Below the pieces are notes generated by a model. The model saw only the letters and a list, made by a program, of their open reading frames with translations, had not been told where the DNA came from and ran no database searches. A stretch of DNA of 43,388 nt from contig PHCF01000008.1 in the NCBI GenBank assembly GCA_002842145.1, forward strand, positions 1 to 43,388, in the 5' to 3' direction. A program made the translations under genes and the position numbers. Position 1 is the first letter of the stretch. Each line of letters begins with the position of its first letter. This document shows, in pieces, positions 1-43,388 of this stretch. Source of the stretch: Betaproteobacteria bacterium HGW-Betaproteobacteria-6 (lineage in GTDB: Bacteria > Pseudomonadota > Gammaproteobacteria > Burkholderiales > Rhodocyclaceae).

Positions 1-99
1 GATGACCCCTGCCGCTTATGCCAGATCACTTGCCCAGAAATCAGTAAAATTAACCCCGGACTCTAAAGCCTACTGCTACTGAAAACGGGGGGACGTCGC
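1..99. mobile_element. Inverted terminal repeat of the window, probable insertion-sequence end (left copy)
   Basis: These 99 bases are the exact reverse complement of 43290-43388, and identity stops at base 100. The right copy interrupts a panE-like gene, so the repeat behaves as the end of an inserted element. A short frame at 2-82 opens toward the interior and stops at TGA 80-82, 17 bases before the repeat ends. It could be the C-terminal tail of a transposase that lies outside the window, but I do not recognise the family. Both window ends abut the same end of this element in opposite orientation. Confidence 0.75.
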
Positions 100-247
100 C
101 CCCAAAACGGATGGCGATTTAACATGCCAGAGGTTAACAGGTGGGCATGAACGTCAATTAGCATGAGTTGTCCTCAAAGTGGCGGCACAGATGGTCAGCA
201 CCAAGCGAGTTTTCGAGACTGCCTGTGCAATCAAGCGACAGGGGGCT
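100..247. other. Intergenic junction between the repeat and the ferredoxin reductase gene
   Basis: This is 148 bp of non-coding DNA downstream of the minus-strand reductase gene. A G5/C5 palindrome (about 87-104) spans the repeat/host boundary. Read on the minus strand it is followed by GTTTT, so it could act as a weak terminator. I see no other gene or RNA here. Confidence 0.4.
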
Positions 248-1501
248 TCACCTTCCAGCCCCTTCTCCTGGACGGTTCTCGGATTCCCATACTTTCAGGT
301 CAAAGCCCGGAGTTGCAGCGATAGCCGGCGTTAATGCGGGGGGACGAGAAAGAATTTTCCGGGCGATGATGTGGTCGCCCGGCCGACTGCACGACTCGAC
401 CGCCAACAGTTCTTGACCTCGAAAACACAACACAGACAATTGCTGCTTCTCAATATCGCCGAGAGCTACATAGCTGTCTGCCCCTGTCGACAGCCCGGCA
501 ATTTGCAGCTTTAGGCTACCTTGATCTGTCCAAAACCAGGGCAGCGCCGAATACTGGGCGGGCTTACCCATCAGGCGTGCAGCAATCAGTTTCCCTTGGT
601 CTACGGCATTCTGGACCGATTCCAGACGTGTCAGCTTTTCATCATTTTGGGCACAGGGAAATGCCGCCACGTCGCCAAGTGCTGATATAGCTGGATCTGA
701 CGTCAGCATATTGCCATTTACACGAATCCCATTGTCGATTTCAAGCCCTGCCTCTAACGCTAGAGCCACATTAGGAATCACCCCAATGCCAAAGACCACA
801 AGATCTGCCGGCAATAGTCGACCATCCGAAGTAACCACCTCGGCAACCTTCCCACCCTCGCCCTTTAATGCAGCTATACCGGTACGAAAATTGAACTTAA
901 CCCCCCACCCTTGGTGCGCTGAAAGGAATAACTCCGACATCTGCGGCGATACAGCCCGTGCCATCAGACGATCGCCTAGCTCGATGACTTCGACGGTAGC
1001 ACCGCCAGCGGCAGCAACAGCCGCGAACTCGAGTCCAATGAAACCAGCGCCAATTACCACAACGTTTTTCGCTGACTGAAGCAGTGGAGACAAAGCATCA
1101 GCATCCACTTTCGTCTTAATTCCAAAGATTCCATCCATGTCAGAACCGGGCACGTTAAGTGGCCGATTGTGCGCCCCTGTAGCCAGCACTAGGTGATCGT
1201 AGCGAAGCTCAGCGCCGGATTTTAGTATGACGCGCTGATTCTGTCGGTCGATTGCCTCAGCATCATCATGAATCATGCGAATGCGCTGATCCTCATAAAA
1301 CACCTCAGGCCGGAAGATCATTGCAGATGCATTGATCTTTCCGAGCAAATACGCTTTAGATAACGGGGGACGCTGGTAGGGCAGACCCTGCTCGTTATTG
1401 ACCAGAATGATCTCGCCATCGAAGCCTTCCTGACGTAGCGAGGCAGCAACCTGAAAACCACCATGCCCAGCACCAATGATCACGATAGATTGTAGTGGCA
1501 T
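248..1501 (-). CDS. FAD/NAD(P)H-dependent ferredoxin reductase (putidaredoxin/rhodocoxin reductase type)
   Basis: This protein (417 aa) probably passes electrons from NAD(P)H to the [2Fe-2S] ferredoxin encoded just upstream, and from there to a P450 or ring oxygenase. It has an N-terminal FAD dinucleotide fold (GAGHGG, about residues 10-15), the ATGA segment near 107-110, a second nucleotide fold (VVVIGAGFIG, 147-156) and the LGDVAAFP segment that contacts FAD. Length is typical of the class I P450 reductase family. An in-frame TTG lies two codons upstream, but ATG 1501 is preferred because AAGGA lies 8 bases before it. It is the last gene of the minus-strand SDR-FAH-MFS-ferredoxin-reductase run, 22 bp after the ferredoxin. 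The partner oxygenase is not adjacent; the two P450s near 30 kb and 35 kb are the obvious candidates in the window. Confidence 0.9.
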   Translation of the reverse strand: MPLQSIVIIGAGHGGFQVAASLRQEGFDGEIILVNNEQGLPYQRPPLSKAYLLGKINASAMIFRPEVFYEDQRIRMIHDDAEAIDRQNQRVILKSGAELRYDHLVLATGAHNRPLNVPGSDMDGIFGIKTKVDADALSPLLQSAKNVVVIGAGFIGLEFAAVAAAGGATVEVIELGDRLMARAVSPQMSELFLSAHQGWGVKFNFRTGIAALKGEGGKVAEVVTSDGRLLPADLVVFGIGVIPNVALALEAGLEIDNGIRVNGNMLTSDPAISALGDVAAFPCAQNDEKLTRLESVQNAVDQGKLIAARLMGKPAQYSALPWFWTDQGSLKLQIAGLSTGADSYVALGDIEKQQLSVLCFRGQELLAVESCSRPGDHIIARKILSRPPALTPAIAATPGFDLKVWESENRPGEGAGR

Positions 1502-1523
1502 TTCCAAAATCCTTGTTTTCAGG

Positions 1524-1844
1524 TCAATACTGCGATTCGGGCAAACGCAGAGTAAGGCCGTCCATGTCTGCAGTTACAACCAATTGGCAAGTCAGGCGGC
1601 TATTCGGCATAAGCATCGGCACATTCTCAAGCATGTCCTTCTCCGTTCCTTGCGCAGGACCAAAATGTCCCATCCAGGACTCATCAACGTAGGCATGGCA
1701 TGTGGCACATGCACATGCCCCGCCGCAATCAGCCGATATCCCGGGTAGGCCGGCAAAGGTAGCAGCCTGCATGACAGACTGTCCGACCTCGATGGAAACC
1801 TGATGTTCGTTACCGTTGTGCTCGATGAAAGTAATGGTAGGCAT
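1524..1844 (-). CDS. [2Fe-2S] ferredoxin, putidaredoxin/adrenodoxin type
   Basis: This is a 106 aa electron carrier. The cluster ligands are visible as C40-x5-C46-x2-C49 and C86, the spacing of putidaredoxin-like ferredoxins. There is an additional non-ligand C44. ATG 1844 was chosen because the conserved fold starts there (MPTITFIEHNG). The longer frame upstream would only add residues lying in the 40 bp gap after the MFS gene. A purine-rich AAGAGA precedes the start. It sits 22 bp before the reductase gene, and together they form a class I P450 redox pair. Co-transcription with the upstream catabolic genes suggests service to an oxygenase of this pathway. Confidence 0.92.
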   Translation of the reverse strand: MPTITFIEHNGNEHQVSIEVGQSVMQAATFAGLPGISADCGGACACATCHAYVDESWMGHFGPAQGTEKDMLENVPMLMPNSRLTCQLVVTADMDGLTLRLPESQY

Positions 1845-1884
1845 GTGGAATTCTCTTATAAAGTTGTTTCTAATCAGGACTGAA

Positions 1885-3213
1885 CTACAGAAGCTTCTGT
1901 CTTCTTGAATGCTCTGGATAGACTTCTTGCACGAATGACGGACTACGCCCAAGAGTCAGTAACATGAAGGAGCCAATTAGCGTGCTGACCACGCTATAGG
2001 TCAGCATCGAGGAATATGAACCACTCTTTGCCAGCATGCTTGCAAAGAGCAGCGGCGCAGCAGCTGATGCGACGGTAATCAGCCCCTGATGCACTCCAAA
2101 CAGCCGGCCGTAATCCTTGAGTCCGAAGTAACGTGCAATCAAAAAGGCGGCAATATCGAATTCGGCACCGGCCCCCAGACCGATGAGCACACCAGCTAGA
2201 CTAATCAGCTGTATTGAGTTGTTGTCAGACAAATAGATCAGGCAACCAACAGCAGGCAGTGCCAAACTCAGTGCTGCAATTCCGGGAGGCCAGAATCGAT
2301 CAAGCAGATAACCAACAACTAGACGGCCAGCGATCAACGCAAAGCCAAAATAGCTGAAGATCATAGTTGCCTCTGCCGTCGAGAACCCACGGTCGCGCAG
2401 CATCGGGACGGTACTTGTAACTAAGCCGACCACCGCCGATACTACCAACGATAGCGCGATATTGCAGACCCAGAATTTGGGGGCGCACACACCATGACGA
2501 AAATCGATTCCCGCCAAAGAGGTACGCTCAACAATTTTCTCAGATTGATTTTTGGTCCCCGGCGACGCTCTCTTGAGTTCTCCTGGAAGTCGAAACCACC
2601 ACAAGGTCAGAGGAATTCCGATCACTAAATTAAGAGTAGCCAGAATAACGAACGCCGCCCGCCAATCCCAGTTCTCGACTCCCCACCCCAGCAGGCGGGG
2701 GATCAATGCCGCTGTGATACCTGTCCCTGAAAGTCCGATTGCTAGGGCCAGCCCTCGATTGCGCATAAACCAGAGGTTAAGCAACTGGGTCCAAGTGACA
2801 GCGAGAGCCCCCATTCCACAAATTGGCAGAAGGAAAAATGCGGCGTACAAGCTCCAGATTGAACCCCAGATTTGTGTCGTTGCAAGATAGCCAAGCGCCA
2901 TCAGGAAAAAGGAGGCGAGAGTGACTCGCTTGATTCCGTAGCGGAGATTGGCCCAGCCGACAAGTTGCAGTCCAATTACCGCTCCGCCAAATAGAAAACT
3001 GATTGCTGCCTGCAACTCCCCTCGTTCCCATCCAAAAGCCTGCTGCAATGGAATAACAAGCACACCGAAACCATAAAGGAGTGCGGCGTTGATGCTAATT
3101 GCCACACCAACCACCGCCAAGAGCACGATGGACCATGCTTCCTTGAACTCAGTCAAATCGATTGCCGCCAGACTGGATGTCATGTGCCTATTTTTCATGA
3201 GATATATTCCCAT
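1885..3213 (-). CDS. MFS transporter (monocarboxylate/oxalate-formate antiporter-like)
   Basis: This is a 442 aa integral inner-membrane protein with about twelve hydrophobic segments and a central hydrophilic loop near residues 205-230 (RASPGTKNQSEKIVERTS). The sequence style fits the MFS monocarboxylate/OFA branch. It probably imports the growth substrate or an organic-acid intermediate; the dit cluster also carries an MFS permease (DitE). Three in-frame ATGs (3213, 3198, 3183) make the start uncertain, and hydrophobic sequence starts only after residue about 27. It lies 31 bp after the FAH-fold gene and 40 bp before the ferredoxin, inside one minus-strand operon. The substrate cannot be read from the sequence. 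Confidence 0.82.
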   Translation of the reverse strand: MGIYLMKNRHMTSSLAAIDLTEFKEAWSIVLLAVVGVAISINAALLYGFGVLVIPLQQAFGWERGELQAAISFLFGGAVIGLQLVGWANLRYGIKRVTLASFFLMALGYLATTQIWGSIWSLYAAFFLLPICGMGALAVTWTQLLNLWFMRNRGLALAIGLSGTGITAALIPRLLGWGVENWDWRAAFVILATLNLVIGIPLTLWWFRLPGELKRASPGTKNQSEKIVERTSLAGIDFRHGVCAPKFWVCNIALSLVVSAVVGLVTSTVPMLRDRGFSTAEATMIFSYFGFALIAGRLVVGYLLDRFWPPGIAALSLALPAVGCLIYLSDNNSIQLISLAGVLIGLGAGAEFDIAAFLIARYFGLKDYGRLFGVHQGLITVASAAAPLLFASMLAKSGSYSSMLTYSVVSTLIGSFMLLTLGRSPSFVQEVYPEHSRRQKLL

Positions 3214-3244
3214 GCTTCACTAGCCGACGAAGCTCACTGTTGGC

Positions 3245-4231
3245 TCACGATTTAATCACGCGGCTACGCAGGATGCCGATACCCTCGACTTCAAGTTCAA
3301 TGACATCGTTGGGCTTCAGGAAACGTTGCTGCTCTAGGCCACAGCCATTGCCAACCGTTCCAGACCCAAGGACCTCACCGGGATATAGCGTTTCCGAACG
3401 GGATATATGCGCAATGACATCCTCGAACTGCCAGCGCATGTCTCGCGTCGTACCTCGCCCCCACTCCTCACCATTGACCCGTGCAATCATGAGTAGATCG
3501 TAGGGATCAGGCAACTCGTCTGCAGTCACTAGGCACGGCCCCATCACATTGCCTGTATCAAAATCCTTGCTCTTGGCTGGGCCAAGCATTCCTGGCATTT
3601 CCCTGGCCTGCGCGTCCCGCGCACTCATGTCGTTGAAAATGGTGTAACCGACGATATGCTCGCGAGCTCTTTCACGCGCAACGTCCTTGGTCTGGCGACC
3701 TATGTAGCAAGCAAACTCAAGTTCAAAATCCATTACCTTGCTATAGGAAGGCCAGATTACATCGTCATCCGGACCGATCACGGCAAATCGGTTGCACTTG
3801 TAATAGATGGGCTGACGATTAAAAGTCTCGATAACGCGATCGTCGGCACGGGTATTCATGAGCTTAAGTGCCTCTTCTGGATTCGGCTCGTTTGCTACCC
3901 GTGCTCGTCTCGCGGCAGCAAAGCTCTGGCGAAGATGCAATTCAAAACAAGAACAATCTCGCATCTGGGGCGGCGGCTGGATTGGCGCACACAACCTCAC
4001 CATGTCGCGCTGAACCACCGCAATAGTTGGTGCCCGCGCCACAAGAGCCCCTGCAGCGTCTAACGCGTTCTTACCACCTTCGACCAACGATAGGATACTG
4101 GCGAATTCTGGAATGGCATTACCCGTGATTTTCTCTGCCGCCGCGAGCAAATCAACAATCGCTGAATCTGACTCAATCAGCGCCCCTGCTCGCTGAATCC
4201 CATGTTCGTTAAGATAGGTAACTAATCTCAT
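3245..4231 (-). CDS. Fumarylacetoacetate hydrolase-fold enzyme (C-C hydrolase / isomerase-decarboxylase type)
   Basis: This 328 aa protein carries the FAH catalytic fold in its C-terminal two thirds. The metal-binding acidic residues are visible at E170 and E172 (DFELEF) and D201 (NDMSARD), followed by the conserved PAKSKDFDTGNVMGPCL segment. Family members cleave C-C bonds of dioxo acids or isomerise/decarboxylate meta-cleavage products. In the dit cluster the equivalent protein (DitH) is assigned to processing the ring-cleavage product. A matching role after the extradiol dioxygenase here is inferred. ATG 4231 is preferred over the longer frame (to 4306) because GAGG lies 8 bases before it and the conserved MRLVTYL start fits homologs. 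It lies 85 bp downstream of an SDR gene. An alternative role is a true fumarylacetoacetase-like hydrolase giving acetoacetate, which the acetoacetyl-CoA synthetase at 15830 could salvage. Confidence 0.88.
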   Translation of the reverse strand: MRLVTYLNEHGIQRAGALIESDSAIVDLLAAAEKITGNAIPEFASILSLVEGGKNALDAAGALVARAPTIAVVQRDMVRLCAPIQPPPQMRDCSCFELHLRQSFAAARRARVANEPNPEEALKLMNTRADDRVIETFNRQPIYYKCNRFAVIGPDDDVIWPSYSKVMDFELEFACYIGRQTKDVARERAREHIVGYTIFNDMSARDAQAREMPGMLGPAKSKDFDTGNVMGPCLVTADELPDPYDLLMIARVNGEEWGRGTTRDMRWQFEDVIAHISRSETLYPGEVLGSGTVGNGCGLEQQRFLKPNDVIELEVEGIGILRSRVIKS

Positions 4232-4316
4232 GCTTTGCCTCAATTTCGCGAAACGCCACTTGGAAGCGGCCAAGTACGAATGATTTACGGGCGTTTGAAA
4301 ACCCAATATCTGTTAT

Positions 4317-5018
4317 TTAGAGTCGCCCGCTGACCGGAATACTCGCCCCGGTCACATCAGATGCATCATCTGAGAGTAAAAATGCAATGACTGCAGCAAG
4401 TTTCCCAAGCGACACCCAACGGTTTCTATCGGCATCCGGCATAAGGGCCCGGCTTGCCGGCGTATCGATGGTGCTCGGGAGCACAGCATTCACGGTAATC
4501 CCCCGATCCTTAAACTCCTCGGAGAGCGCTTCCGTCAAGCGGATGACGCCGGATTTTGAGGCCGCATAAGCGCCCATTCCCGCTCCGGCCTTAAGCGCTG
4601 CCATCGAAGCCACATTGACTATGCGTCCCGCAGGATGTTCCAAAAGATGCGGCAAGGCAGCACGACAACTGGCAATAGCAGTACGCACATTCATCGCATA
4701 CATACGATCCCAAGACTCAAGAGTGCCACTCTCAACCGACTCCCAAACAAACCCCCCGGCGACGTTAACCAATCCGTCGATACCTCCGAGAACACTTCGT
4801 ATGCTGTCAAATGCAGTTGTGCAGGAAATCCCATCACTCAGATCAACCTCGCCAAGCGCGAGAACAACTCCCGAAGGTAGCCCATCTGTCGGCACAGGTG
4901 CGCAGTCGAGCAACACAACTTGCGCACCTTCGGCGACCAAGCGAGCAGCCAAGGCCCGACCCAGCGCCCCGAAGCCGCCTGTAATCACAATATTAGTAGA
5001 TCTAATTGCAGATGACAT
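4317..5018 (-). CDS. Short-chain dehydrogenase/reductase (classical SDR)
   Basis: This 233 aa NAD(P)-dependent oxidoreductase has the cofactor motif TGGFGALG (13-20), NVAGG (85-89) and a complete catalytic triad at S138, Y151 and K155 (YAASK). It probably interconverts an alcohol and a ketone on the terpenoid/steroid-like substrate or its diol. It is the first gene of a minus-strand operon whose promoter lies in the 132 bp divergent region with the DUF35 gene, next to the operator-like dyad at 5073-5097. The physiological substrate cannot be inferred from the sequence. Confidence 0.9.
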   Translation of the reverse strand: MSSAIRSTNIVITGGFGALGRALAARLVAEGAQVVLLDCAPVPTDGLPSGVVLALGEVDLSDGISCTTAFDSIRSVLGGIDGLVNVAGGFVWESVESGTLESWDRMYAMNVRTAIASCRAALPHLLEHPAGRIVNVASMAALKAGAGMGAYAASKSGVIRLTEALSEEFKDRGITVNAVLPSTIDTPASRALMPDADRNRWVSLGKLAAVIAFLLSDDASDVTGASIPVSGRL

Positions 5019-5072: not shown

Positions 5073-5097
5073 TAGACAGTTTTTAAACATATGTCTA
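5073..5097. promoter_or_regulatory. Operator-like dyad in the divergent SDR/DUF35 promoter region
   Basis: The inverted repeat TAGACA-N13-TGTCTA lies in the divergent intergenic region. From 5075 the 25 bases match 8587-8611 upstream of the small ferredoxin at 20 positions without a gap. The cognate regulator is most simply the IclR protein encoded at 7769-8557, between the two sites. This is inference from repetition and position. An ATG at 5091 lies inside this element, which argues that translation of the DUF35 gene starts later, at 5151. Confidence 0.6.
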
Positions 5098-5150
5098 TAT
5101 CTTGTTATAGAATCAGTATTGACCATTCGTCAAACGACAAGGCGAACCAT

Positions 5151-5549
5151 ATGACTCGAAAACTACCGTCAATCACACCTGACAACGTCAATTTTTGGCA
5201 CGATGGCGCAAAGGGACAGCTCACAATTCACTATTGTCAGCAGTGCCCCCGTTTCTTCCATCCTCCTGCACCGATCTGTCCACGCTGCACAAGCTTTGCC
5301 GTGGAACCCAGACGCGTTTCCGGCAAAGGGCATGTCGCAAGCTACACAATCAACTACCAAGCGTGGCGCCCCGATCTGACCACACCCTATGTCGTCGCGA
5401 TTGTTGAACTAGAAGAGCAAGCCGGACTCCGTTTCGTCAGCAATATTGTTGACATACCTCCCGAAGAGGTTCGTATCAACATGGCGGTTAAGGTGCGATT
5501 CGAGCAACACGAAGACGTCTGGCTACCTCTGTTCGAGAAAGATGAATGA
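5151..5549 (+). CDS. DUF35/OB-fold zinc-ribbon protein, partner of the thiolase-fold enzyme
   Basis: This 132 aa protein has an N-terminal rubredoxin-like zinc ribbon (C29-x2-C32 and C43-x2-C46) followed by an OB-fold acyl-CoA-binding domain. Such proteins form a complex with SCPx/Ltp2-type thiolase-fold enzymes; in the mycobacterial steroid pathway the DUF35 domain of ChsH2 binds the Ltp2 aldolase. Here it is a free protein whose stop overlaps the start of the next gene by ATGA, a usual sign of coupled translation of complex partners. Start ATG 5151 has AAGG 10 bases upstream. The longer frame from 5091 would run through the operator-like dyad. Confidence 0.9.
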   Translation: MTRKLPSITPDNVNFWHDGAKGQLTIHYCQQCPRFFHPPAPICPRCTSFAVEPRRVSGKGHVASYTINYQAWRPDLTTPYVVAIVELEEQAGLRFVSNIVDIPPEEVRINMAVKVRFEQHEDVWLPLFEKDE

Positions 5550-6739
5550 TGTTCGACCGAATTTTTGAAAAAGACGTCGCCATCTCCGGCATCGGCCAAT
5601 CTGAAGTTGGGCGCCCAGTAGCAAAAACAGCCATGCAGCTAACCTTGGATGCTTGCCTCGAGGCAATAGCCGATGCTGGGCTCCGACGAGATGATATTGA
5701 CGGTGTCGCCTGCTGGCCGGGAGACAACAACAATGGGGATGCCTTTTCGCCGGTTGGCCCGAATGCCTTAATCAGCACTCTTGGACTCAAAGTCAATTGG
5801 TACGGCGCTGGTTATGAAGGCCCCGGCCCACTAGCTGGCATAATTAATGGCGCGATGGCGATCGCTGCGGGGCTATGCCGTAACGTGCTCGTATTTCGCA
5901 CCATTACCGAAGCGAGCCGCCGACAAACCGACAAGACTGCAAGCGCCCTAACCAACAAAACAGTTGGCCGCGACAGCAGCTTTTTCTGGCAATGGTACAC
6001 CCCATTCAACGTGCTTTCTGGGGTCAATCTCATGGCGCTCTATGCGCAGCGCCACTTCCATGAATATGGAACCACCCCGGAACAACTGGCCCAAATCGCA
6101 CTGACTTGTCGCGCTAATGCTGCGCTCAATCCAAAGGCCATCTATCGCACGGCACTCAGCTTGGACGATTACCTAGCCTCACGGATGATTTCCAGCCCGT
6201 TACGGATGCTCGATTGCGATGTTCATTGCGACGCCTCAACAGCCATCATTTTGTCTCGTGCCGATGTTGCTAAAGATGGGCCGAATCAACCGATACGAAT
6301 CGAAGCCATTGGCTCTGCACTGCACCAGCCCTGGTCATGGGACCAAATCGATCTTACCGGCATGGCTGCCGGCGACGCCAGTGACATGATGTGGGCACGC
6401 ACCGACTACAAGCCAAGCGATGTCGGCTCGGCTCAACTGTATGATGGATTTTCCATTCTGACCATGATCTGGATGGAAGCTCTCGGACTCTGCCCCCGAG
6501 GCGAAAGTGGCCGTTTTATTGAGGGGGGAGAGCGAATTTCCCGCACCGGCCAACTGCCAATTAACACCAATGGTGGCCAATTATCGGGCGGCCGCACGCA
6601 TGGCCTTGGTTATGTTCACGAAGCATGCAGCCAGCTATGGGGCAGAGCCGGGAAGAGACAGATCGCCGAGCATCAGGTTTCCGTTGTCGCCTCCGGAGGA
6701 GGCCCCTTGGCTGGTAGCGTATTGCTGGTTCGTGAATAA
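5546..6739 (+). CDS. Thiolase-fold acyl-CoA aldolase/thiolase-like enzyme (SCPx/Ltp2/DitF-like)
   Basis: This is a 397 aa thiolase-superfamily protein. The segment that normally holds the nucleophilic Cys (around residues 90-105, EGPGPLAGIINGAMAIAAG) has Gly/Pro instead of Cys. The usual histidine region has Tyr (LYDGF, Y299). The C-terminal part keeps THGLGY (351-356) and SGGG (383-386). Ltp2-type retro-aldolases lack the thiolase Cys, use tyrosines and need a DUF35 partner, so side-chain cleavage by retro-aldol chemistry is more likely than true thiolysis. Start ATG 5546 overlaps the DUF35 stop. The dit cluster gene ditF encodes a protein of this broad class. The reaction is inferred; a role in condensation cannot be excluded. 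Confidence 0.82.
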   Translation: MMFDRIFEKDVAISGIGQSEVGRPVAKTAMQLTLDACLEAIADAGLRRDDIDGVACWPGDNNNGDAFSPVGPNALISTLGLKVNWYGAGYEGPGPLAGIINGAMAIAAGLCRNVLVFRTITEASRRQTDKTASALTNKTVGRDSSFFWQWYTPFNVLSGVNLMALYAQRHFHEYGTTPEQLAQIALTCRANAALNPKAIYRTALSLDDYLASRMISSPLRMLDCDVHCDASTAIILSRADVAKDGPNQPIRIEAIGSALHQPWSWDQIDLTGMAAGDASDMMWARTDYKPSDVGSAQLYDGFSILTMIWMEALGLCPRGESGRFIEGGERISRTGQLPINTNGGQLSGGRTHGLGYVHEACSQLWGRAGKRQIAEHQVSVVASGGGPLAGSVLLVRE

Positions 6740-6800: not shown

Positions 6801-7664
6801 ATGTTTATGAAAAAAGTTCTTATGGGTATTGCCTTGATCCTCTCAACCGGCCTTCATCCTCTCTGGGCAGCAGATACTCCAAGTAGCGCCAACGATTCAC
6901 TCGACGCAAAACGGGCCCAACAGCTCCTGCAGCGAGCAGTCTTGCGTTATCAAGCAGTTCAAGACAAGGCATTGGCAGAGTTTGCACGACAAGGGGAATT
7001 TACTGACAACGAACTCTATGTATACGTTCTCGACATGGATGGCGTTGTTTTAACGAGCGGAGGTTCCTCCGCCACGCTCGTTGGGCGGAACGTCAAGACA
7101 ATGCGGGACATAGCAGGCAAACCATTTTTTGCCGAAATGATTCACAAGGCCCGCCAGGATGGCCACGGCGAAGTTGACTATCGCTGGCTCAACTGGGCAG
7201 ACAATACGATTCAACGAAAACGTCCATTCTTTGAAGTCTCGTCTGACAGGATCATTGCCGTCGGTTACTACCTTACTCGCGCGTCGCAAGATCAGGCGCG
7301 AGCATTTCTCAATCACGCCGTAGCAGCGATGAAAACATCTCCATCCGAGGCAATTGAAGAATTCAACAAGCTAGATGGCCGCTTCATACAGGACGATCTC
7401 TATGTATATGTGATCGATACCCGGACTGGCCGCTTCGTAGCGCACGGAACGATGCCAAGGCTACGCGGCACAGATGGCAATGAACTACGTGACCGTGACG
7501 GCACACCAATTATCAAAAACCTGATAGCACAATCACTCAAGCAACAAAATGGTCAGCTTCAGTACGTCTGGAAGAACCCCGTTACGCAGCGAAGCGAAAA
7601 CAAGTTCGCACTGTTTCAAGTGGTCAATAACTATATCGTCGCCGTGGGCTACTACAAACCATAA
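6801..7664 (+). CDS. Periplasmic double-Cache domain protein without a signalling module
   Basis: This is a 287 aa exported protein. Residues 1-23 form a signal peptide (MFMKKVLMGIALILSTGL, then cleavage after LWA). Two copies of a Cache-like unit follow, about 72-157 and 200-285, each beginning LYVYV-x-D and ending VAVGYY or IAVGYY. Cache domains normally sense small ligands in chemoreceptors or histidine kinases, but here no transmembrane or output domain follows. It may therefore bind or escort a periplasmic ligand. AGGA at 6793-6796 supports ATG 6801; the open frame upstream to 6507 overlaps the aldolase gene and is not used. It lies 61 bp after the aldolase, probably in the same operon. 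Confidence 0.83.
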   Translation: MFMKKVLMGIALILSTGLHPLWAADTPSSANDSLDAKRAQQLLQRAVLRYQAVQDKALAEFARQGEFTDNELYVYVLDMDGVVLTSGGSSATLVGRNVKTMRDIAGKPFFAEMIHKARQDGHGEVDYRWLNWADNTIQRKRPFFEVSSDRIIAVGYYLTRASQDQARAFLNHAVAAMKTSPSEAIEEFNKLDGRFIQDDLYVYVIDTRTGRFVAHGTMPRLRGTDGNELRDRDGTPIIKNLIAQSLKQQNGQLQYVWKNPVTQRSENKFALFQVVNNYIVAVGYYKP

Positions 7665-8658: not shown

Positions 8659-8874
8659 ATGAGCGAAAAACTTCACAAGGTCACTATTGACCGCAGCCGT
8701 TGTTGCGGATACGGACTTTGCGCCGCAATCTGCCCGGACGTCTATAAGCTTGATGCCGACGGTATCGTATACCTTGAAATTGATTTCGTACCTGCCGGTA
8801 TGGAAGAGGCTGCCATTGAAGGCGCTGCAGTTTGCCCCGCAGAAGCCATTCACGTCACCCCCCCGATGCCCTGA
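8659..8874 (+). CDS. Small ferredoxin, probable [3Fe-4S] type (P450/dioxygenase-associated)
   Basis: This is a 71 aa electron carrier. The ligand pattern is C15-x2-Y18-x2-C21-x3-C25-P with a distant C59-P. Position 18, where a 4Fe-4S ferredoxin has its second Cys, is Tyr, so a [3Fe-4S] or three-Cys [4Fe-4S] cluster is likely. C16 is an extra Cys. Ferredoxins of this kind serve bacterial P450s, and in the dit cluster DitA3 of this class serves the ring dioxygenase. ATG 8659 has AGGAG upstream; the longer frame from 8596 crosses the promoter. It is followed by an SDR and the extradiol dioxygenase. It is a second electron-transfer route besides the [2Fe-2S] ferredoxin at 1524. Confidence 0.88.
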   Translation: MSEKLHKVTIDRSRCCGYGLCAAICPDVYKLDADGIVYLEIDFVPAGMEEAAIEGAAVCPAEAIHVTPPMP

Positions 8875-8908: not shown

Positions 8909-8998
8909 ACGGAGATTACTCCCATTAGTTGTCAAAGGCTCCTCCTAGAAATACAAGGATAGCCCTTTACGCTCGGCAAAATCTTCTTGGACATTGTC

Positions 8999-10819: not shown

Positions 10820-10971
10820 CCCCTTGACCACAATTTACCAGCCCCAAGATGATCGATTAGTTCCGGAGATTCATACGAAGAGCAATCACTTCCGCACAGA
10901 ATTGATGTGCGCACATGGGATGTCGGCAACGTATCGACATTCCTACACCAGCACCCACGGAGCCAACTGCT

Positions 10972-15051: not shown

Positions 15052-15053
15052 GA

Positions 15054-22916: not shown

Positions 22917-22927
22917 CAAAGCTCCAT

Positions 22928-26592: not shown

Positions 26593-26594
26593 GA

Positions 26595-33828: not shown

Positions 33829-33868
33829 ACTGACTCTCCGTTGCAGCAACAATTCGTAACGTCGTTAT

Positions 33869-36242: not shown

Positions 36243-36427
36243 TTTTGTCTCCGTTATATGAATTCCTGCGTATGCCGGACGCAATTAGCCACGAATTAAA
36301 AACTGAATACTTTTTCAATTTTCGAATACATAATACCGACTTCAGGTCACCGCAACCGTAGCTTCGTTTGACCTTCAGTCAAGTGGAGTAAGATGATCTG
36401 AATCTAGATAAGATATGTAGCCACTTC
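36243..36427. other. Divergent promoter region of P450-2 and TetR-1
   Basis: This 185 bp region is A/T-rich around 36295-36340. GAATAC at 36305 followed by TTTTTCAATTT resembles the left half and spacer of dyad A, but the right half is not preserved, so I list it only as a possible weak site. No RNA gene is seen. Confidence 0.4.
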
Positions 36428-37138
36428 ATGCTTGGAAAGACCAAAAGCATCACCTCTCCAATCGCAGGCAAGGCGCCTCCGGACAAACGTGAGACCTTGA
36501 GGCGGATTGCTGAAGCGGCACGACAAGAGTTCGCCGCAAAGGGTTTGGCTCAGGCACGGATCGATGACATCGCCCAAGCTGCGGGCGTCACAAAGCAACT
36601 GATCTACCACTACTACCATAGTAAGGACGAACTCTTCGCCTATGTTCTGGAACAGTCCTCAGCCGAAACAATGAGCGGATTGCTGTCGATAGAGCTCGAC
36701 CATCTATCGCCCCGCAAAGCCCTCCAGGCACTCCTCGAGCACATGATTCACCCTTATCATGACCCTCTTCTGAGTTCGCTCGCTCAGGAAGGCATCCGAT
36801 ACCATGAGAGTCATACGACTCCACGGAACAGCTTTATCGAGCTTGCTCCTGAATTGAAACAGATGATGCGTCGAGTGTTTGACCGCGGCATAGAATCGGG
36901 TGATTTTCGCCGGGACGTCGACATTGAATTACTGCTTACGGCAGCAGTATTGGCCACGACCAGCGCCTACGTTAGCCGCTATACCGTCTCAACATTGTGC
37001 GGATTGGATGTCAGCAAAAAAACGGATGCAGATATTTGGCGAAGATTTTCCGTCGATTTCGTACTCTCCGCGGTAGAAAGGGAACGTAGCGAGTCGCACC
37101 CTCTCGTTAAAGTGGCGAACGAGCCAAATATCGTTTAA
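36428..37138 (+). CDS. TetR-family regulator 1
   Basis: This 236 aa protein has an N-terminal TetR helix-turn-helix (about 20-65; REFAAKGLAQARIDDIAQAAGVTKQLIYHYYHSKDELF) and a C-terminal ligand-binding domain of the TetR_C type. It is divergent from P450-2 and overlaps the 3' end of the convergent CrtI-like gene by 32 bp. It probably controls the P450-2 operon; the dyads A-C could be its sites, or those of TetR-2. Confidence 0.92.
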   Translation: MLGKTKSITSPIAGKAPPDKRETLRRIAEAARQEFAAKGLAQARIDDIAQAAGVTKQLIYHYYHSKDELFAYVLEQSSAETMSGLLSIELDHLSPRKALQALLEHMIHPYHDPLLSSLAQEGIRYHESHTTPRNSFIELAPELKQMMRRVFDRGIESGDFRRDVDIELLLTAAVLATTSAYVSRYTVSTLCGLDVSKKTDADIWRRFSVDFVLSAVERERSESHPLVKVANEPNIV

Positions 37139-38696
37139 CCCGGCCCGCAGCAATTCGCCCAGGCAAGCCATTGACCCCTCCACCCGGATGAATACCAGCT
37201 GCCCCCAAAAACAAACCTGCCACTGGTAAAGTGTCGCCCCCCAAACTGACCGCAGGACGCATGAGTGAGGAGCGCGTTGTGCTGGTATCAATGTGCACCA
37301 CGCAGCCGCGATATACATTCAGACGGGCAGCCAGGTCAGGTGCAGCTTCGATGCGACGACCAATTTCATACTCCTTCAATCCATCCATATAGTCAGCAGC
37401 CTGATCTATCACCTGCTGACCAATACGCGACCGAATCACCCCCCATCCTTCGCGCGGCTCGACGGGCATGGCAACCGAATAGAGATAAGCGACTTCCTGC
37501 CCATCTGGAGCCTGACCTGGATCAACAGCACTCGGGGCTGTAATCCATAAGTAGGGCAAACTCGAGACATCGCCGCGTGCAGAGACACGAAAGTTATCGA
37601 GAACCGCTTCAGAGGTACCAATTAACAGAACGCATTGTCTCAAGCTCAAGCCATCATGCCGCATTGCTTCATGGCGTTTATAGCTAATCCTGCCGCTGAG
37701 CGCGACATCAACCTTCAGCGGCGAAGCGCCATGACCATTCGATGGTGCATGCGCCACTCGAATCAAGGTACGCCGATCTAAGACACCTGGCGTAACCATT
37801 TCTAACGCCATCTTCGGATGAATCGAGGCAACCACAGCCTTAGCCGTCAATATCGTGCCGCTCTTTAGGCGAACGCCTTTCACTCGCCCCCTCTCAGCAA
37901 GTATTTCCTCAACGGGTGACGACAGCAGAATTTCTCCACCCAGTTCTCGTAACCGGGAGGCTAGCGCGTTGGAAATCGTTTGGGTACCACCAATTGCCCG
38001 ACCAATACCGAAACGGTGAATAAACCCGAGCAAGGCGAAGTAGATTCCGGTCGCCTCGTTGGTAATCGGCCCAGCCGCACCGAGCAGACAACACAATGCT
38101 GATTGTGTAATGGGGTGCTCAAAGCGCTCCATGATCGAGGTATAGGCAGGACTTCCGATCAGCGCCATGACGTCAGGTTTGAGGTGGCGATTCCGAAACA
38201 GGGCCTTTATCGCCTCCCACTTTGCGCCTAGATTCCGCTGAGAAGGATCTACCCGCATCATCGGAATAGCCATATTGACGAAGGCATCAACCAATTTCAT
38301 CAAGTCCAAGAATTCAAGCGCGTCCTTGGCAGAGAAACGTGCAATCTCCTCAGCCGTTTTTTTAGGATCGCGCCAGAAGACCAGCGAGTTGCCATCCGGA
38401 TGCAGGTATACATAGCCAGGACTGACCTCCACCTGGCGAAATCCATGACGGTCTAGTTGTAACTCCTCAGACATCATGGGATGAACCCTTAATGACATCA
38501 GGTCCAAGGCACATGGATTGATAAGATGCTGTGGTGCTTCTGGAATCAGATATCCACTCGATGCCATCCCACCGATCTTGTCACATGCTTCGATCACTAC
38601 CACCCGCTTCCCAGCTTCTGCCAGATAGCAAGCGGCAGCTAATCCGTTATGCCCTCCGCCGACAATTGCCACATCGTATGAACTCCCGACTACCAT
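37107..38696 (-). CDS. Phytoene-desaturase-like FAD-dependent oxidoreductase
   Basis: This 529 aa protein has an N-terminal FAD fold (GGGHNGLAAACYLAEAGKRVVVIE, residues 12-35) and the C-terminal AGLFLGAAGIHPGGGVNGLPGRIAA typical of CrtI/PYROXD2-like amine-oxidase-family enzymes. Such enzymes desaturate or isomerise isoprenoid chains or are of unknown function. AGGAGGAGA precedes ATG 38696. It overlaps TetR-1 tail to tail by 32 bp. With the CrtC/AttH-like gene and P450s, it points to an isoprenoid substrate, but this is inference. Confidence 0.88.
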   Translation of the reverse strand: MVVGSSYDVAIVGGGHNGLAAACYLAEAGKRVVVIEACDKIGGMASSGYLIPEAPQHLINPCALDLMSLRVHPMMSEELQLDRHGFRQVEVSPGYVYLHPDGNSLVFWRDPKKTAEEIARFSAKDALEFLDLMKLVDAFVNMAIPMMRVDPSQRNLGAKWEAIKALFRNRHLKPDVMALIGSPAYTSIMERFEHPITQSALCCLLGAAGPITNEATGIYFALLGFIHRFGIGRAIGGTQTISNALASRLRELGGEILLSSPVEEILAERGRVKGVRLKSGTILTAKAVVASIHPKMALEMVTPGVLDRRTLIRVAHAPSNGHGASPLKVDVALSGRISYKRHEAMRHDGLSLRQCVLLIGTSEAVLDNFRVSARGDVSSLPYLWITAPSAVDPGQAPDGQEVAYLYSVAMPVEPREGWGVIRSRIGQQVIDQAADYMDGLKEYEIGRRIEAAPDLAARLNVYRGCVVHIDTSTTRSSLMRPAVSLGGDTLPVAGLFLGAAGIHPGGGVNGLPGRIAAGRVKRYLARSPL

Positions 38697-38861: not shown

Positions 38862-39569
38862 TTAGCGTCGAGCAACTTTGCCCGACATCAACATCGAGAT
38901 CATTCGACCGATCTTGCGTGGCACATTACGCCGCTCTGGGCCCGATGGAACGAGGACTTCGCTCAAGATATAACGGATCATCAGCTCACAAATCATTTCA
39001 CGGTCGAGTTGGACGCCAAAGCGTTCCTCCCAGGCATCGAAGACTGTCCGTAAAACATCCTGAAATCGGACCACAGAATCCTGAAAAATACGCTGGAAAA
39101 AACGCAGCGCGTAATCAGGTGCCACTACCAGCAGCTGTCGGGCACGGGTATTTTCAAGGTAATTATCGATGTAACGTACAACCGCCTGAAGTCGCTCGTC
39201 CGGATCGACGTAAGCATCGGTTGCATCATGCAACGAGGTATGAAATTGGTCGCGCTTGTAACGGGAGTAAGCGTCAAGCAAGTCTTCCTGCGATGAGAAG
39301 TAACGATAGAACGTGCCGCGCGAAATATGAGCTTCTTCGCAAACATCCAGAATAGAAATCCGTTCCGCCCCAGAGCGAAGCAAAATCTCTTCAGTTGCAC
39401 TCAATATCGACTGAATCGTGCCATCAGATCGCTTGTTACGCCGCACCTTGATCACAGCACCGCTTTGTTTGGGCGTCCTGGTACCTATCCCCAGACTTTT
39501 TTTGCCACGAGCAGTCCCGTCCATTTTATTTGCCTTATCAGTTTTTCCCTGCTCACCCAGATCCGTCAT
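38862..39569 (-). CDS. TetR-family regulator 2
   Basis: This 235 aa protein has an N-terminal basic leader (RGKKSLGIGTRTPKQSG) followed by the TetR helix-turn-helix (GAERISILDVCEEAHISRGTFYRYFSSQEDLLDAY). The C-terminal domain has no motif I can assign. ATG 39569 is preferred because GGAGAG stands upstream; the frame extends to 39638 without such a signal. It is divergent from the CoA ligase operon, with a strong promoter between them, and is likely its repressor. Confidence 0.9.
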   Translation of the reverse strand: MTDLGEQGKTDKANKMDGTARGKKSLGIGTRTPKQSGAVIKVRRNKRSDGTIQSILSATEEILLRSGAERISILDVCEEAHISRGTFYRYFSSQEDLLDAYSRYKRDQFHTSLHDATDAYVDPDERLQAVVRYIDNYLENTRARQLLVVAPDYALRFFQRIFQDSVVRFQDVLRTVFDAWEERFGVQLDREMICELMIRYILSEVLVPSGPERRNVPRKIGRMISMLMSGKVARR

Positions 39570-39661
39570 CAATCTCTCCAGAAACCACCGAAACCATGCG
39601 ATGGATTGTAGCGCGCCCGCCTCAATCCGAATATGCACAAGCCCTTAAAATCGGAACAACT

Positions 39662-39751: not shown

Positions 39752-41383
39752 ATGGCTGGAATTGGCGACATCAATACTTGGTCTATCGGCCAGCAGGATA
39801 CGGTTATCGCAGCACTTGATAGGGCGGTTGCCGCCCACCCGGATCGAGTGCTACTCGATTTCGGTGGACAATTGTTCACGTATGCAGACGTAGACCGACT
39901 CTCAACGCAATTTGCTCATGCACTTGCCGAATTGGGTGTAGAAGCCGGGCATACAGTGTTAAGCATGCTCGATAACAACATCGATGCGGTAGTCTGCTGG
40001 CTTGCGGCGAATAAGCTCTGCGCGGTAAGTGTTCCGGTCAACACTGCACTGCGAGGAGAGTTTCTGCGTCACCAAATCGCTGACTCGAAAGCAAAAATCA
40101 TCATTTCCGAGGCAGATTACGTTGATCGTATCGCCCAAGTATCAGACGGCATTCCCGATGCAAGTTTAATCCTGCATCGAGGCAATCTCGAGCGGCACCC
40201 AACATCGCCTATTGGCATTCGTCCACTCGACGAACATCGAGGTAGTTGCACTGACACGATAATGACCAAGCCAAATCCTTGGGACCTTGCCTGTATCGTT
40301 TACACCTCAGGTACTACCGGGCCATCAAAAGGTTGCATGCTGAGTTACAACTACATGTGCAATCTAGCCCGCCTACAACTTCGAGCGGGGCCCGCTACAG
40401 AAAAGGACGTGACAATCACGCCTCTACCGCTGTTTCATATGAACGCACTATGCGTCGGCATCATATCGAACATCCTCGTCGGTGCCCGTGTTGCCATTGT
40501 TCAACGCTTCTCCGTCTCAAATTTCTGGCCCGAGGTTGAACGAAGCGGCGCAACGATTGCTTCCATCCTTGGCAGTATGGGCGGTTTACTCGCTCAAGCG
40601 ACAGACAACGCATCAATGAAAAAGTGCTTCGGCCAGATTCACACTGTAAGGGGAAATCCATTCACTGAAGAAACCAAAAAGACTTGGCGTGATCGATTCG
40701 GCGCAAAGCAAGTTGGCGGAAATGGGTATGGCCTGACCGAAGCCAGCGTTATCACTTCGTTACCAGGTGGCGAATATGCCGCACCAGGATCGTCTGGCAA
40801 ACGTGTACCAGACTTTGATGTTCGTATATTTGATGAACTGGACCGCGAACTTCCCGCTAACTCGCCGGGTGAAATCGTGGTTCGTCCACTTCGCCCAGAC
40901 ATCATGTTTATGGGCTACTGGGGCCGTCCTGCTGACACAGTCAAACTAATGCGCAATATGTGGTTCCATACCGGCGATATTGGCAAGTTTGACGACAATG
41001 GCTTTTTCTATTTCGTGGACCGCAAGAAAGACTACCTGCGTCGCCGCGGAGAAAACATTTCAAGCTTCGAGATGGAGGCTGCCTTCTCCGCGCATCCAGA
41101 AATTGAGGAAGTGGCCGTACATGCTGTCCCCTCTGACAAGGGGGAGGATGACGTAAAAGTAACCGCGATCCTCAAACCTGGTAGTTCCCTTAAGCCGGAA
41201 GACCTCTTCAAATGGGCGACATCTGCAGTGCCCTACTATGCGCTCCCCCGCTACATCGAGTTTCGGACGACCATGCCAAAGAACCCCCAAGGACGCGTGC
41301 TGAAATACGAACTCCGTGAAGAAGGCAAAACTCCTAGCACTTGGGATATGGAACAAAGTGATATCCAGATAACCAAGCGTTAA
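39752..41383 (+). CDS. AMP-binding acyl-CoA ligase (CaiC-like)
   Basis: This 543 aa ligase would activate a carboxylic acid as CoA thioester, with ATP giving AMP. The P-loop-like VYTSGTTGPSKGC is at 183-195, GYGLTEASV near 325 and WFHTGDIGKFDDNGFFYFVDRKKD near 405-430. The final motif reads NPQGRVLKYELR with Arg where many ligases have the catalytic Lys; Lys lies three residues on, as also found in some CaiC-like proteins. GGAGACAAAT precedes ATG 39752. It starts a plus-strand run with a VOC protein, a methyltransferase and a truncated panE-like gene. Confidence 0.92.
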   Translation: MAGIGDINTWSIGQQDTVIAALDRAVAAHPDRVLLDFGGQLFTYADVDRLSTQFAHALAELGVEAGHTVLSMLDNNIDAVVCWLAANKLCAVSVPVNTALRGEFLRHQIADSKAKIIISEADYVDRIAQVSDGIPDASLILHRGNLERHPTSPIGIRPLDEHRGSCTDTIMTKPNPWDLACIVYTSGTTGPSKGCMLSYNYMCNLARLQLRAGPATEKDVTITPLPLFHMNALCVGIISNILVGARVAIVQRFSVSNFWPEVERSGATIASILGSMGGLLAQATDNASMKKCFGQIHTVRGNPFTEETKKTWRDRFGAKQVGGNGYGLTEASVITSLPGGEYAAPGSSGKRVPDFDVRIFDELDRELPANSPGEIVVRPLRPDIMFMGYWGRPADTVKLMRNMWFHTGDIGKFDDNGFFYFVDRKKDYLRRRGENISSFEMEAAFSAHPEIEEVAVHAVPSDKGEDDVKVTAILKPGSSLKPEDLFKWATSAVPYYALPRYIEFRTTMPKNPQGRVLKYELREEGKTPSTWDMEQSDIQITKR

Positions 41384-41412: not shown

Positions 41413-41796
41413 ATGAGCATCCTTACACACATTACACTAGGCACACAGGACCTCGATCGCGCCAAATTATTTTATGACTACGTACTCGAACCATTAAACT
41501 TTAAGCCTCTGCTCAATCTGGCGCACAAAATCTGCGGCTGGGGAATCCAATCCCCACAATTCATGGTTGGTTACCCGCGCAATGGGGAGCCTGCATCCGC
41601 AAGCAATGGTTTGACTATCGGGCTTCAGGCACCTAACCGTGCAGCCATTAATGAGTTTTACCGGCGCGCACTCGAACTCGGCGGAACTGACGAAGGCCCC
41701 CCCGGCCCACGCCCATTTGGTGAGAACGCCTATGCAGCCTATATCCGCGACCTCGATGGGCACAAAATTGTTGCCTCTTGCCGCTCCCCGGAATGA
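41413..41796 (+). CDS. VOC-superfamily (glyoxalase/bleomycin-resistance-like) protein
   Basis: This 127 aa single VOC module starts MSILTHITLGTQDLDRAKLFYDYVLEPL and ends YIRDLDGHKIVASC, typical of small VOC proteins. Potential metal ligands are H6 and E119-region residues, but the second His of glyoxalases is not obvious. The function could be a lyase, isomerase or binding protein. It is 29 bp after the CoA ligase and 58 bp before the methyltransferase. Confidence 0.85.
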   Translation: MSILTHITLGTQDLDRAKLFYDYVLEPLNFKPLLNLAHKICGWGIQSPQFMVGYPRNGEPASASNGLTIGLQAPNRAAINEFYRRALELGGTDEGPPGPRPFGENAYAAYIRDLDGHKIVASCRSPE

Positions 41797-41854
41797 AAGC
41801 ATGCTTAGGCACAGCATCAGGTGTAAATCATTGAATTGAGCTTCAGGTAAAAAT

Positions 41855-42892
41855 ATGGCGAAAAAACCGACAACCCTAATCCGGAAATCGGATTTTTCCC
41901 AGCCGACAGGATCCAATGAGTTGGCGATGCTCGACGTCTACATGCCGATGATGAAATCGTCAGCAATCATCGCAGCAGGACGCCTGGGGCTGTTTGAAGC
42001 ATTGGCCGTTGGCCCCCTCTCAGTTGCGAAACTTGCTGCCAAAATTGATTCCAGCAACAAGGGGACTGCCGCCCTAACTGACTTCCTAATAGCCTTGGGC
42101 TATCTGGAAAAGCACGGCGATCACTTGGCCAATACTGCTAGTACCCAACGTTGGTTTACAAGCCGAGGGAAAGTCGACTACACACCGGGGCTGCTATGGA
42201 CACACGAGGCATGGTCAATGATGGGGGGGCTAGCGGAAGCAGTGCGCGGCGGACACCCTGAAAATATTCTTTGGAATGCGATGGTGGAAAAACCCCACCT
42301 TGGTGATTTGTTTTCATCATATATGGCTGCATTTGCTTCAGATCTTGGAGCTGACCTACTAAAACACGTCCCTGTTCAAGCAGAATATCGCCAATTGCTC
42401 GACTTGGGTGGCTCACATGGTCTACATGCGATTCGATTCTGCCATCACTACCCACAGCTCAACGCGGCCATCGTTGACCTTCCCTCCGCTCTAACCAAAA
42501 CAGGGAAAACCATCAAGAATGAAGGCCTCTCAGAACGTATTGACTTGATTCCCGGAGATTTACAAGAACAGAACTGGGGAATCAACCATGACTTGGTATT
42601 TTATCTTTCAGTCGCACACAACCATACTGTGGACGAGAATCGCCTTGTCTTTCAGCGGATTTTCAACTCCCTAAACCCAGGGGGCCTGCTCGTCATCCAT
42701 GAATACTTAACAAAGACACCGAAGAACGCACTCGATGCAGCATTTCGCCTTACTCTCCTGTTAGAAACCGGCACTCAAACCTACTCCTATGATGATTACT
42801 CAAATTGGTTAACAGAAGCCGGTTTCAAGTCCGTTGAACTAGTCCATCTCGACCCACGAGAAAAGGGTTCATTTATATTGGCGCGGCATTAG
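41855..42892 (+). CDS. SAM-dependent O-methyltransferase-like protein
   Basis: This is a 345 aa protein with an N-terminal dimerisation winged helix (about 25-110; SAIIAAGRLGLFEALAVGPLSVAKLAAKI) and a SAM-binding domain whose motif I is LLDLGGSHGLHAIRF (near 180-194). It belongs to the caffeate/hydroxyneurosporene O-methyltransferase group. GxGxG is GGSHG. In a degradation cluster a methyltransferase is unusual; it might protect a hydroxyl or act in regulation. It shares the plus-strand operon with the CoA ligase. Confidence 0.85.
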   Translation: MAKKPTTLIRKSDFSQPTGSNELAMLDVYMPMMKSSAIIAAGRLGLFEALAVGPLSVAKLAAKIDSSNKGTAALTDFLIALGYLEKHGDHLANTASTQRWFTSRGKVDYTPGLLWTHEAWSMMGGLAEAVRGGHPENILWNAMVEKPHLGDLFSSYMAAFASDLGADLLKHVPVQAEYRQLLDLGGSHGLHAIRFCHHYPQLNAAIVDLPSALTKTGKTIKNEGLSERIDLIPGDLQEQNWGINHDLVFYLSVAHNHTVDENRLVFQRIFNSLNPGGLLVIHEYLTKTPKNALDAAFRLTLLLETGTQTYSYDDYSNWLTEAGFKSVELVHLDPREKGSFILARH

Positions 42893-43043
42893 GCATTTAG
42901 TCCCTTGGCGCCCTGAATCGGATTTGTCCTGACCCTGAAAGCACAACTTACCTCCATCGACGGTACGCCATTTGCTATCGCTATGCTTCCCTCCTACATA
43001 GAGCAGATCCCGAGAAGACAACAAAATACACAGAGAACACGCT

Positions 43044-43289
43044 ATGAAGACCACAATACTGGGTGCTGGCGCAGTCGGCTGCTTTTACGGCGGAATGCTT
43101 GCTCGCGCTGGACGTGAAGTTGTCCTGATTGGCCGCTCTGTTCATGTCGAAGCAATTCGTTGCGGCGGGTTGCGCATGCAAACGCAAAGTTTTGACGAAC
43201 AGGTGCCGGTTTCCGCCAATACTGATCCTGCTGCTGTCGCTGGTTCAAAGATGGTACTTTGCTGTTTCAAATCAAACGATACTTTGCAA
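43044..43289 (+). pseudogene. Truncated 2-dehydropantoate 2-reductase (PanE/ApbA)-like gene
   Basis: The first 82 residues show the NAD(P)-binding start MKTTILGAGAVGCFYGGMLARAGREVVLIGR and end at CCFKSNDTLQA. The repeat then begins at 43290 and the frame ends 8 codons into it. A full ketopantoate reductase is about 300 residues, so only a quarter remains. In the island it may have been a ketoacid reductase. The start has no strong ribosome-binding site. Confidence 0.85.
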
Positions 43290-43388
43290 GCGACGTCCCC
43301 CCGTTTTCAGTAGCAGTAGGCTTTAGAGTCCGGGGTTAATTTTACTGATTTCTGGGCAAGTGATCTGGCATAAGCGGCAGGGGTCATC
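43290..43388. mobile_element. Inverted terminal repeat, probable insertion-sequence end (right copy)
   Basis: This is the reverse complement of 1-99, base for base. It lies inside the panE-like gene, so an insertion split this gene. The element itself continues outside the window, and its transposase and target duplication cannot be seen. The equal 99-base length on both sides may reflect the assembler's word size rather than the true element end. Confidence 0.75.

Follow-up and report, generated by a model that had tools for sequence, protein, structure and literature searches.

A dit-type catabolic island without DitA1A2 in a Rhodocyclaceae genome, with a paralogous oxygenase pair on the adjacent contig

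The DNA analysed here, called the window, is a contig of 43,388 bp (PHCF01000008.1, assembly GCA_002842145.1) from Betaproteobacteria bacterium HGW-Betaproteobacteria-6. It carries a dit-type island, predicted to serve the catabolism of abietane-like diterpenoids, in which the ring-hydroxylating oxygenase pair DitA1A2 is missing, most simply because it was lost. Islands of this kind serve bacteria in the degradation of conifer resin acids. A paralogous alpha/beta pair ("class II") encoded on contig C143 most probably performs the DitA step, and this reading as a whole is judged to be probable. The original prediction, made from the letters of the window, had described a Dit-like island with two cytochrome P450s but no Rieske oxygenase: its reading of the island was right, and the puzzle of the missing oxygenase is largely solved once the paralogue on the adjacent contig is taken into account.

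The 38 open reading frames (ORFs) of the window were scanned with Pfam, and NCBIfam was also used. The scan bore out the IclR regulator, short-chain dehydrogenases/reductases (SDRs), extradiol dioxygenase (EDO), FAH-fold enzyme, DUF35/thiolase pair, major facilitator superfamily (MFS) transporters, coenzyme A (CoA) ligase, P450s and beta-oxidation genes listed previously, and the small ferredoxin was confirmed as a 71-aa protein (see table). Its C-x2-Y-x2-C-x3-CP pattern, compared by eye with the motif of such proteins, would fit the earlier guess of a 3Fe-4S protein. Dit names were given to window genes by family or after PMC13063091. For the homologue comparison of fetched islands, matches below 35% identity or 55% coverage were left out; for the genome scan of loci, the limits were 40% identity and 60% coverage.

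Homologues of 26 of the 38 window query proteins lie in one 60-kb stretch of Pseudomonas abietaniphila ATCC 700689, which we take to be BKME-9, the dit type strain. The stretch includes counterparts of the EDO, thiolase, FAH enzyme, IclR regulator, CoA ligase, both P450s, the block of acyl-CoA dehydrogenases and enoyl-CoA hydratase, and the 'AttH' and 'CrtI' genes. Homologues of DitH (FAH), DitF (thiolase), DitR (IclR) and DitJ (CoA ligase) co-occur in the window (71, 81, 61 and 72% identical to P. abietaniphila, respectively), and a DitC-type EDO homologue is present in 21/21 named genomes. Many window genes stand in matching order in these genomes, and the grouping is more than chance because the same order recurs in them. 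The Thauera island is collinear with the window except for a few insertions, and the block of indolepyruvate ferredoxin oxidoreductase (IOR) and electron transfer flavoprotein (ETF) genes is common to Thauera, Aromatoleum, one Zoogloea and Massilia. The Dit-like identity is therefore supported by the grouping of most homologues in P. abietaniphila and by an EDO score far under the HsaC cut-off (162.9 against 450 bits); judged by gene content and order, the window covers roughly half of a putative dit-type (abietane diterpenoid) island.

In the steroid-pathway comparison that had been proposed, the same score spoke against the HsaC pathway. The EDO is ~33-34% identical to HsaC-annotated enzymes on plasmids and 62-88% identical to the EDOs of other genomes that carry a DitA1-like oxygenase, apart from the window's own species, where the identity is 100%. 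The best plasmid matches of the IOR protein were found in Massilia (72%) and in Caballeronia and Paraburkholderia (about 70%). An estrogen or steroid pathway, prompted by the combination of P450, extradiol dioxygenase and IOR-like enzyme, was dropped as the principal explanation on account of these EDO identities and of the ~70% identical IOR relatives on Paraburkholderia and Caballeronia replicons; the edc estrogen cluster was compared by description, not by sequence.

That DitA1A2 is not in the window had been stated correctly: a Rieske domain occurs in 0/38 ORFs, and matches to PF00848 and PF00866 were not found there. In the whole genome, PF00866 matched one beta subunit and PF00848 gave two matches, one of them a shorter Rieske protein elsewhere; a DitA1A2 orthologue beside FAH was not found by these searches in the window or in the genome. 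The expected site is given by the relatives: in Thauera, Aromatoleum and Zoogloea the gene order is FAH, alpha, beta, MFS1, Fer2, reductase, with a remaining island that largely matches the window, and the Thauera alpha and beta subunits between FAH and MFS1 are 76 and 64% identical to the P. abietaniphila pair. Across 53 DitA1-type loci (L051-L103), FAH is the nearest matched gene before alpha in 44, is separated from it by one matched gene in 2 and has no match in the available DNA in 7. In the window, 31 bases separate FAH from MFS1 within uninterrupted contig sequence, and FAH also adjoins MFS on the complete Massilia putida plasmid. Because Pseudomonas, Zoogloea and Thauera/Aromatoleum all have the pair beside FAH, loss in the window's group is the simpler history, and the gap between the FAH and MFS genes is most simply explained in this way.

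The unlinked oxygenase invoked in the original prediction came close. A paralogous alpha/beta pair does exist outside the window; it sits on C143, adjacent across an insertion sequence (IS), at 24.8-26.9 kb from the left end of that contig and ~25 kb beyond the left end of the window. Its alpha subunit is 69% identical to the P. abietaniphila alpha. Classes were assigned by identity, tree and position: 4 of the 21 named genomes have DitA1-type (class I) only, 9 have both classes and 8 have class II only, the last group including the window's own species and several metagenome-assembled genomes (MAGs), of unstated completeness. In a tree of 81 alpha subunits, the alpha of the window genome belongs to a clade of 28 (support 100/100) that leaves the P. 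abietaniphila alpha outside, and is nested with Aromatoleum/Thauera (100/94) and Zoogloea; class I was not recovered as a single clade with the root that was chosen. All four Rieske ligands, together with the bridging Asp and the two Fe-His, at positions that we assigned by motif, are invariant in 29/29 class II rows (two of them identical) and 49/49 class I rows of the alignment. The second Pseudomaricurvus alpha (L127), class I by its identity and FAH neighbour and sister to class II in the tree, was left out of the residue alignment. Pseudomonas resinovorans (L033/L051) and Stutzerimonas (L036/L054) have two EDOs each, one ~2 kb from class II and the other between both classes, and this arrangement suggests that class II can supply substrate to a ring-cleavage enzyme of its own. 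Among the literature matches listed, a second oxygenase class in dit islands was not found, and work on the LB400 dit genes may describe one.

The window is a complete contig (G000:C150); its genome measures 4.3 Mb, is divided into 226 contigs and is 93.9% complete. Arms of 106 nt, inverted and 97% complementary, lie at its two ends, and the contig is thus broken at copies of one IS. The left end of C143 carries on the amidohydrolase gene that begins at the left end of the window, with the IS ends between; since this single IS-cut gene spans both contig ends, the window and C143 are neighbours. On the complete Massilia putida plasmid, the EDO and the class II pair are ~30 kb apart, so that both island halves are on one plasmid. 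The guanine-plus-cytosine (GC) fraction of the window is 0.52, against values of 0.57-0.65 (at least 0.59 in six cases) for seven stretches of further contigs of this genome; window and C143 together have 0.52-0.53 against ~0.62 for the remaining genome. Collinear islands elsewhere are GC-rich (Massilia 0.69, Thauera 0.64). The island on the window and C143 was perhaps acquired from a low-GC source.

We infer that class II, with its complete catalytic motifs, performs the ring dioxygenation in this island and replaces DitA. For a substrate that gene content and synteny suggest to be abietane-like, and with the step order taken from the described dit pathway, degradation would proceed as follows: the P450s would hydroxylate the substrate, on ring B by analogy with DitQ; the class II Rieske dioxygenase, fed by a window-encoded ferredoxin, would add dioxygen to form a ring-C diol; an SDR would re-aromatise the diol to a catechol; the extradiol dioxygenase would open the ring; and the FAH enzyme, thiolase/DUF35 pair, CoA ligase and acyl-CoA dehydrogenases would degrade the remainder. 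As a guess, downstream of ring cleavage the IOR/ETF block may process a 2-oxo acid, the role put forward for EdcC in PMC7793797.

Two P450s of this kind were found in 20/22 genomes, one in 1 and none in 1 (a MAG) at E 1e-60. Two P. abietaniphila P450s match P450b, at 80% and 61% identity; P450s of the DitQ kind are thus present. The suggestion that a P450 makes the catechol was rejected, because P. abietaniphila and other genomes with DitA1A2 likewise have two such P450s and because DitQ is described as a C-7 hydroxylase, with DitA acting on 7-oxo-dehydroabietic acid (PMC13063091). Two CYP226 P450s in LB400 abietane catabolism are named in a title in the reference list of a review (PMC6891630). 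The isoprenoid substrate that had been read from the CrtC/AttH-like and CrtI-like genes is a weak hint because Pfam and NCBIfam matches were not found for the former and the latter scored below the carotenoid cut-offs (CrtI family 106/238 bits, CrtO 237/1000).

Several observations weigh against loss of DitA1A2 and its replacement by class II. Hyphomonas, which branches far outside, has FAH adjoining MFS1, and a DitA1-type alpha was not found in it; the pair may therefore have been inserted in the other lineages. The core-gene tree leaves the branching among the window, Thauera/Aromatoleum and Massilia unsettled, so that one or two losses (window, Massilia) both fit. With a completeness of 93.9%, the MAG could lack a DitA1A2 copy that the organism carries at another place. 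Nine genomes keep both classes, and in these class II may do something else. Judged by its motifs, a split Rieske pair, also encoded on C143, is another candidate for the oxygenase.

The coexistence of both classes in 9/21 genomes suggests different roles, and the gene classes of the estrogen (edc) cluster (P450, extradiol dioxygenase and IOR-like enzyme) are present here too. An island of the same kind might accordingly be directed at another substrate, with class II serving, without DitA1A2, a different tricyclic terpenoid or an aromatised steroid-like compound. We regard this as unlikely, if by no means negligible: the two classes differ cleanly at only four columns of the alignment, much of the island is collinear with genomes that keep DitA1A2, and the EDO belongs by identity with those of DitA1-type genomes and not with HsaC-annotated enzymes.

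The split pair consists of two adjacent genes at L017:9230-11301 (C143 ~19.2-21.3 kb), ~3.5 kb from the class II pair, which divide the Rieske oxygenase motifs between them. In Pfam, the first protein matches Rieske families only (PF00355, PF13806) and the second PF19112 (VanA_C) only; a fusion of this Rieske domain to a reductase was not found. In 15/15 aligned rows (13 genomes, two with identical sequences, a second Thauera copy and the Massilia plasmid), CxH...CxxH is kept by the first protein, whereas the second has DLTHADFLH, an iron motif including the bridging Asp, and lacks CxH...CxxH. The catalytic iron motif is absent from the first protein; one Rieske-partner row (L206) matches a loose iron-site pattern at a place not aligned with the real site. 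The catalytic gene is found in 13/22 EDO-bearing genomes and in 1/300 sampled genomes of the order, the window's own (E 1e-30). The predicted structure of the catalytic partner has a mean pLDDT (predicted local distance difference test) of 31; for the Rieske partner, block means are 70-91 over residues 11-110 and 67 over 111-120, and mostly poor afterwards (mean 53). A profile comparison of the partners aligned N-terminal domains only, weakly (probability 5.5%, E 0.007), and gave no evidence that the C-terminal half of the Rieske partner is homologous to a catalytic domain. In characterised enzymes, both centres are on each alpha subunit and electrons cross between subunits, according to the available text of PMC12445004. 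A two-polypeptide Rieske pair of the C143 kind was not found among the literature matches listed, and the LB400 dit work may describe one. Tentatively, and with somewhat more doubt than belief, the Rieske set of this island may have been rewired: DitA1A2 would have been lost, the paralogue would have taken over ring dioxygenation, and a second oxygenase, ~3.5 kb away, would be split over two polypeptides, so that electrons would always be obliged to cross unlike subunits because the Rieske and iron motifs are on separate proteins.

The split oxygenase, or a P450, might instead make the ring diol, with class II acting elsewhere; wherever fetched islands carry the two, the catalytic gene mostly lies within about 1-7 kb of class II. 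We consider this improbable: the catalytic gene was not found in 9/22 genomes, all with an EDO and including P. abietaniphila, Hyphomonas and one Massilia; VanA-type enzymes are usually monooxygenases or demethylases; and the two P450s also accompany DitA1A2. It is very improbable that the DitA1A2 gap is an assembly or binning artefact of MAG-like draft data in a contig broken at repeats, since the 31-base junction is contiguous inside the contig, the 43388-bp contig recurs, with one mismatch, in the MAG HGW-Betaproteobacteria-18 (though possibly from the same site) and the complete Massilia putida plasmid likewise has FAH beside MFS.

Table. Features of the window. Percentages are identities to P. 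abietaniphila unless another genome is named.
Feature	Position	Strand	Basis and remarks
IS end	1..106	.	Near-identical sequence inverted at right end
Amidohydrolase gene start, first 22 codons	99..164	-	Remainder opens contig C143; read against Caulobacter sp. FWC26 homologue
Ferredoxin--NAD reductase	248..1507	-	Pfam; NCBIfam HcaD-like, under cut-off
[2Fe-2S] (Fer2) ferredoxin	1524..1844	-	Pfam; second ferredoxin, absent from the list of the original prediction
MFS transporter (MFS1)	1885..3213	-	Pfam; 66%
31-base gap	3214..3244	.	Site of DitA1A2 homologues in Thauera, Aromatoleum, Zoogloea
FAH-fold isomerase/decarboxylase (DitH-like)	3245..4306	-	Pfam; 71%
SDR	4317..5018	-	Pfam; 59%
DUF35/OB-fold (OB_ChsH2_C) partner of thiolase	5091..5549	+	Pfam; 62%
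Thiolase-fold lipid-transfer protein (DitF-like)	5546..6739	+	Pfam; 81%
Free-standing Cache-domain (sensor) protein between thiolase and IclR	6801..7664	+	Pfam; also in Thauera, Aromatoleum, Zoogloea islands
IclR regulator (DitR-like)	7769..8557	+	Pfam; 61%
Small ferredoxin, 71 aa (DitA3-like)	8659..8874	+	68%; 80% in Thauera/Aromatoleum
SDR, dihydrodiol dehydrogenase candidate	8987..9757	+	Pfam; 73%
Extradiol dioxygenase EDO (DitC-like; BphC_D1 + Glyoxalase)	9836..10774	+	Pfam; 75%; 87-88% in Thauera/Aromatoleum
Usp + hemerythrin protein	10915..12021	+	Pfam
MFS_3 transporter	12018..13604	+	Pfam
ETF alpha + beta	14122..15803	-	Pfam
Acyl-CoA synthetase (ACAS_N)	15830..17812	-	Pfam; also in one Zoogloea island
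IOR family protein	17855..21418	-	Pfam, NCBIfam
LysR regulator	21515..22426	+	Pfam
Hemerythrin protein + GTP cyclohydrolase I (FolE)	22473..23488	-	Pfam, NCBIfam
Beta-oxidation block: three acyl-CoA dehydrogenases + enoyl-CoA hydratase	23577..27740	-	Pfam; 55-83% (ACD1 83%)
Amidohydrolase (PF04909)	27857..29164	-	Pfam; 80%
Cytochrome P450 a	29330..30640	-	Pfam; 71%
MFS transporter	31091..32371	-	Pfam
CMD-family protein	32517..33086	-	Pfam
Small conserved hypothetical protein	33469..33864	-	52%; hypothetical in Massilia annotation
'AttH-like' protein	33869..34900	-	Without family match; 65%
Cytochrome P450 b	34968..36284	-	Pfam; 80%
TetR regulator	36428..37138	+	Pfam
FAD-dependent oxidoreductase ('CrtI-like')	37107..38696	-	Pfam, NCBIfam
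TetR regulator	38862..39638	-	Pfam
Acyl-CoA ligase (DitJ-like)	39752..41383	+	Pfam; 72%
VOC protein	41413..41796	+	Pfam
O-methyltransferase, beyond VOC gene	41855..42892	n/a	Pfam; counterpart not found in compared islands
Ketopantoate-reductase-like gene start, cut by right-hand IS	43044..43289	+	By-eye reading

The third-position GC of the ETF alpha and beta genes is 0.80-0.81 (0.49-0.57 in 11 other island genes measured), and a 76% identical ETF copy lies on contig C141; it is possible that the ETF genes were exchanged with a host copy. FolE and hemerythrin genes also lie within the catabolic island in Thauera and Aromatoleum, and folE is at 78 kb on the Massilia plasmid.

In the available part of a 2026 paper, only DitQ and DitA of P. 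abietaniphila are directly linked to specific steps (PMC13063091). Natural islands without DitA1A2 keep much else, and genomes with both classes or with DitA1 only exist alongside; because all three coexist, the role of the second oxygenase can be tested directly. A screen that looks for ditA1 orthologues alone could overlook or misread such degraders. If the split Rieske pair is one enzyme, it would offer a clean system with compulsory electron transfer between unlike subunits.

Among known systems, the edc/oec estrogen clusters, in the available text of PMC7793797, have the same gene classes (P450, extradiol dioxygenase, IOR-like enzyme and ChsH2-like pair), but the P450 EdcA makes the catechol there and an alpha/beta Rieske step is not described. 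The catalytic subunit of NdmCDE (caffeine; available part of PMC4408171) lacks a Rieske cluster, like the 'Van' protein of C143; the Ndm Rieske domain is fused to a reductase, whereas that of C143 is on an adjacent oxygenase-sized protein. The dit region of P. abietaniphila differs in having DitA1A2 after FAH, and class II alpha was not found there, nor IOR, ETF and FolE in the fetched region; it shares, all within one region, the EDO, SDRs, IclR regulator, thiolase/DUF35 pair, FAH enzyme, CoA ligase, two P450s, acyl-CoA dehydrogenases, MFS transporter, small ferredoxin, and Fer2 and reductase. In the region of Massilia putida plasmid unnamed2 (NZ_CP019037.1), counterparts of the Fer2, Cache, Usp-hemerythrin, MFS_3, AACS and O-methyltransferase genes were not found, hemerythrin and FolE genes are elsewhere on the plasmid, and there are additional CoA-transferase/SDR genes; it is otherwise largely collinear with the window (61-91% identity per gene), with FAH adjoining MFS and class II on the plasmid. 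The islands of Thauera sp. 2A1 and Aromatoleum toluvorans differ by the DitA1A2 homologues between FAH and MFS1, and resemble the window in being largely collinear (56-93% per gene) and in having the class II alpha/beta pair too (91/85% identical).

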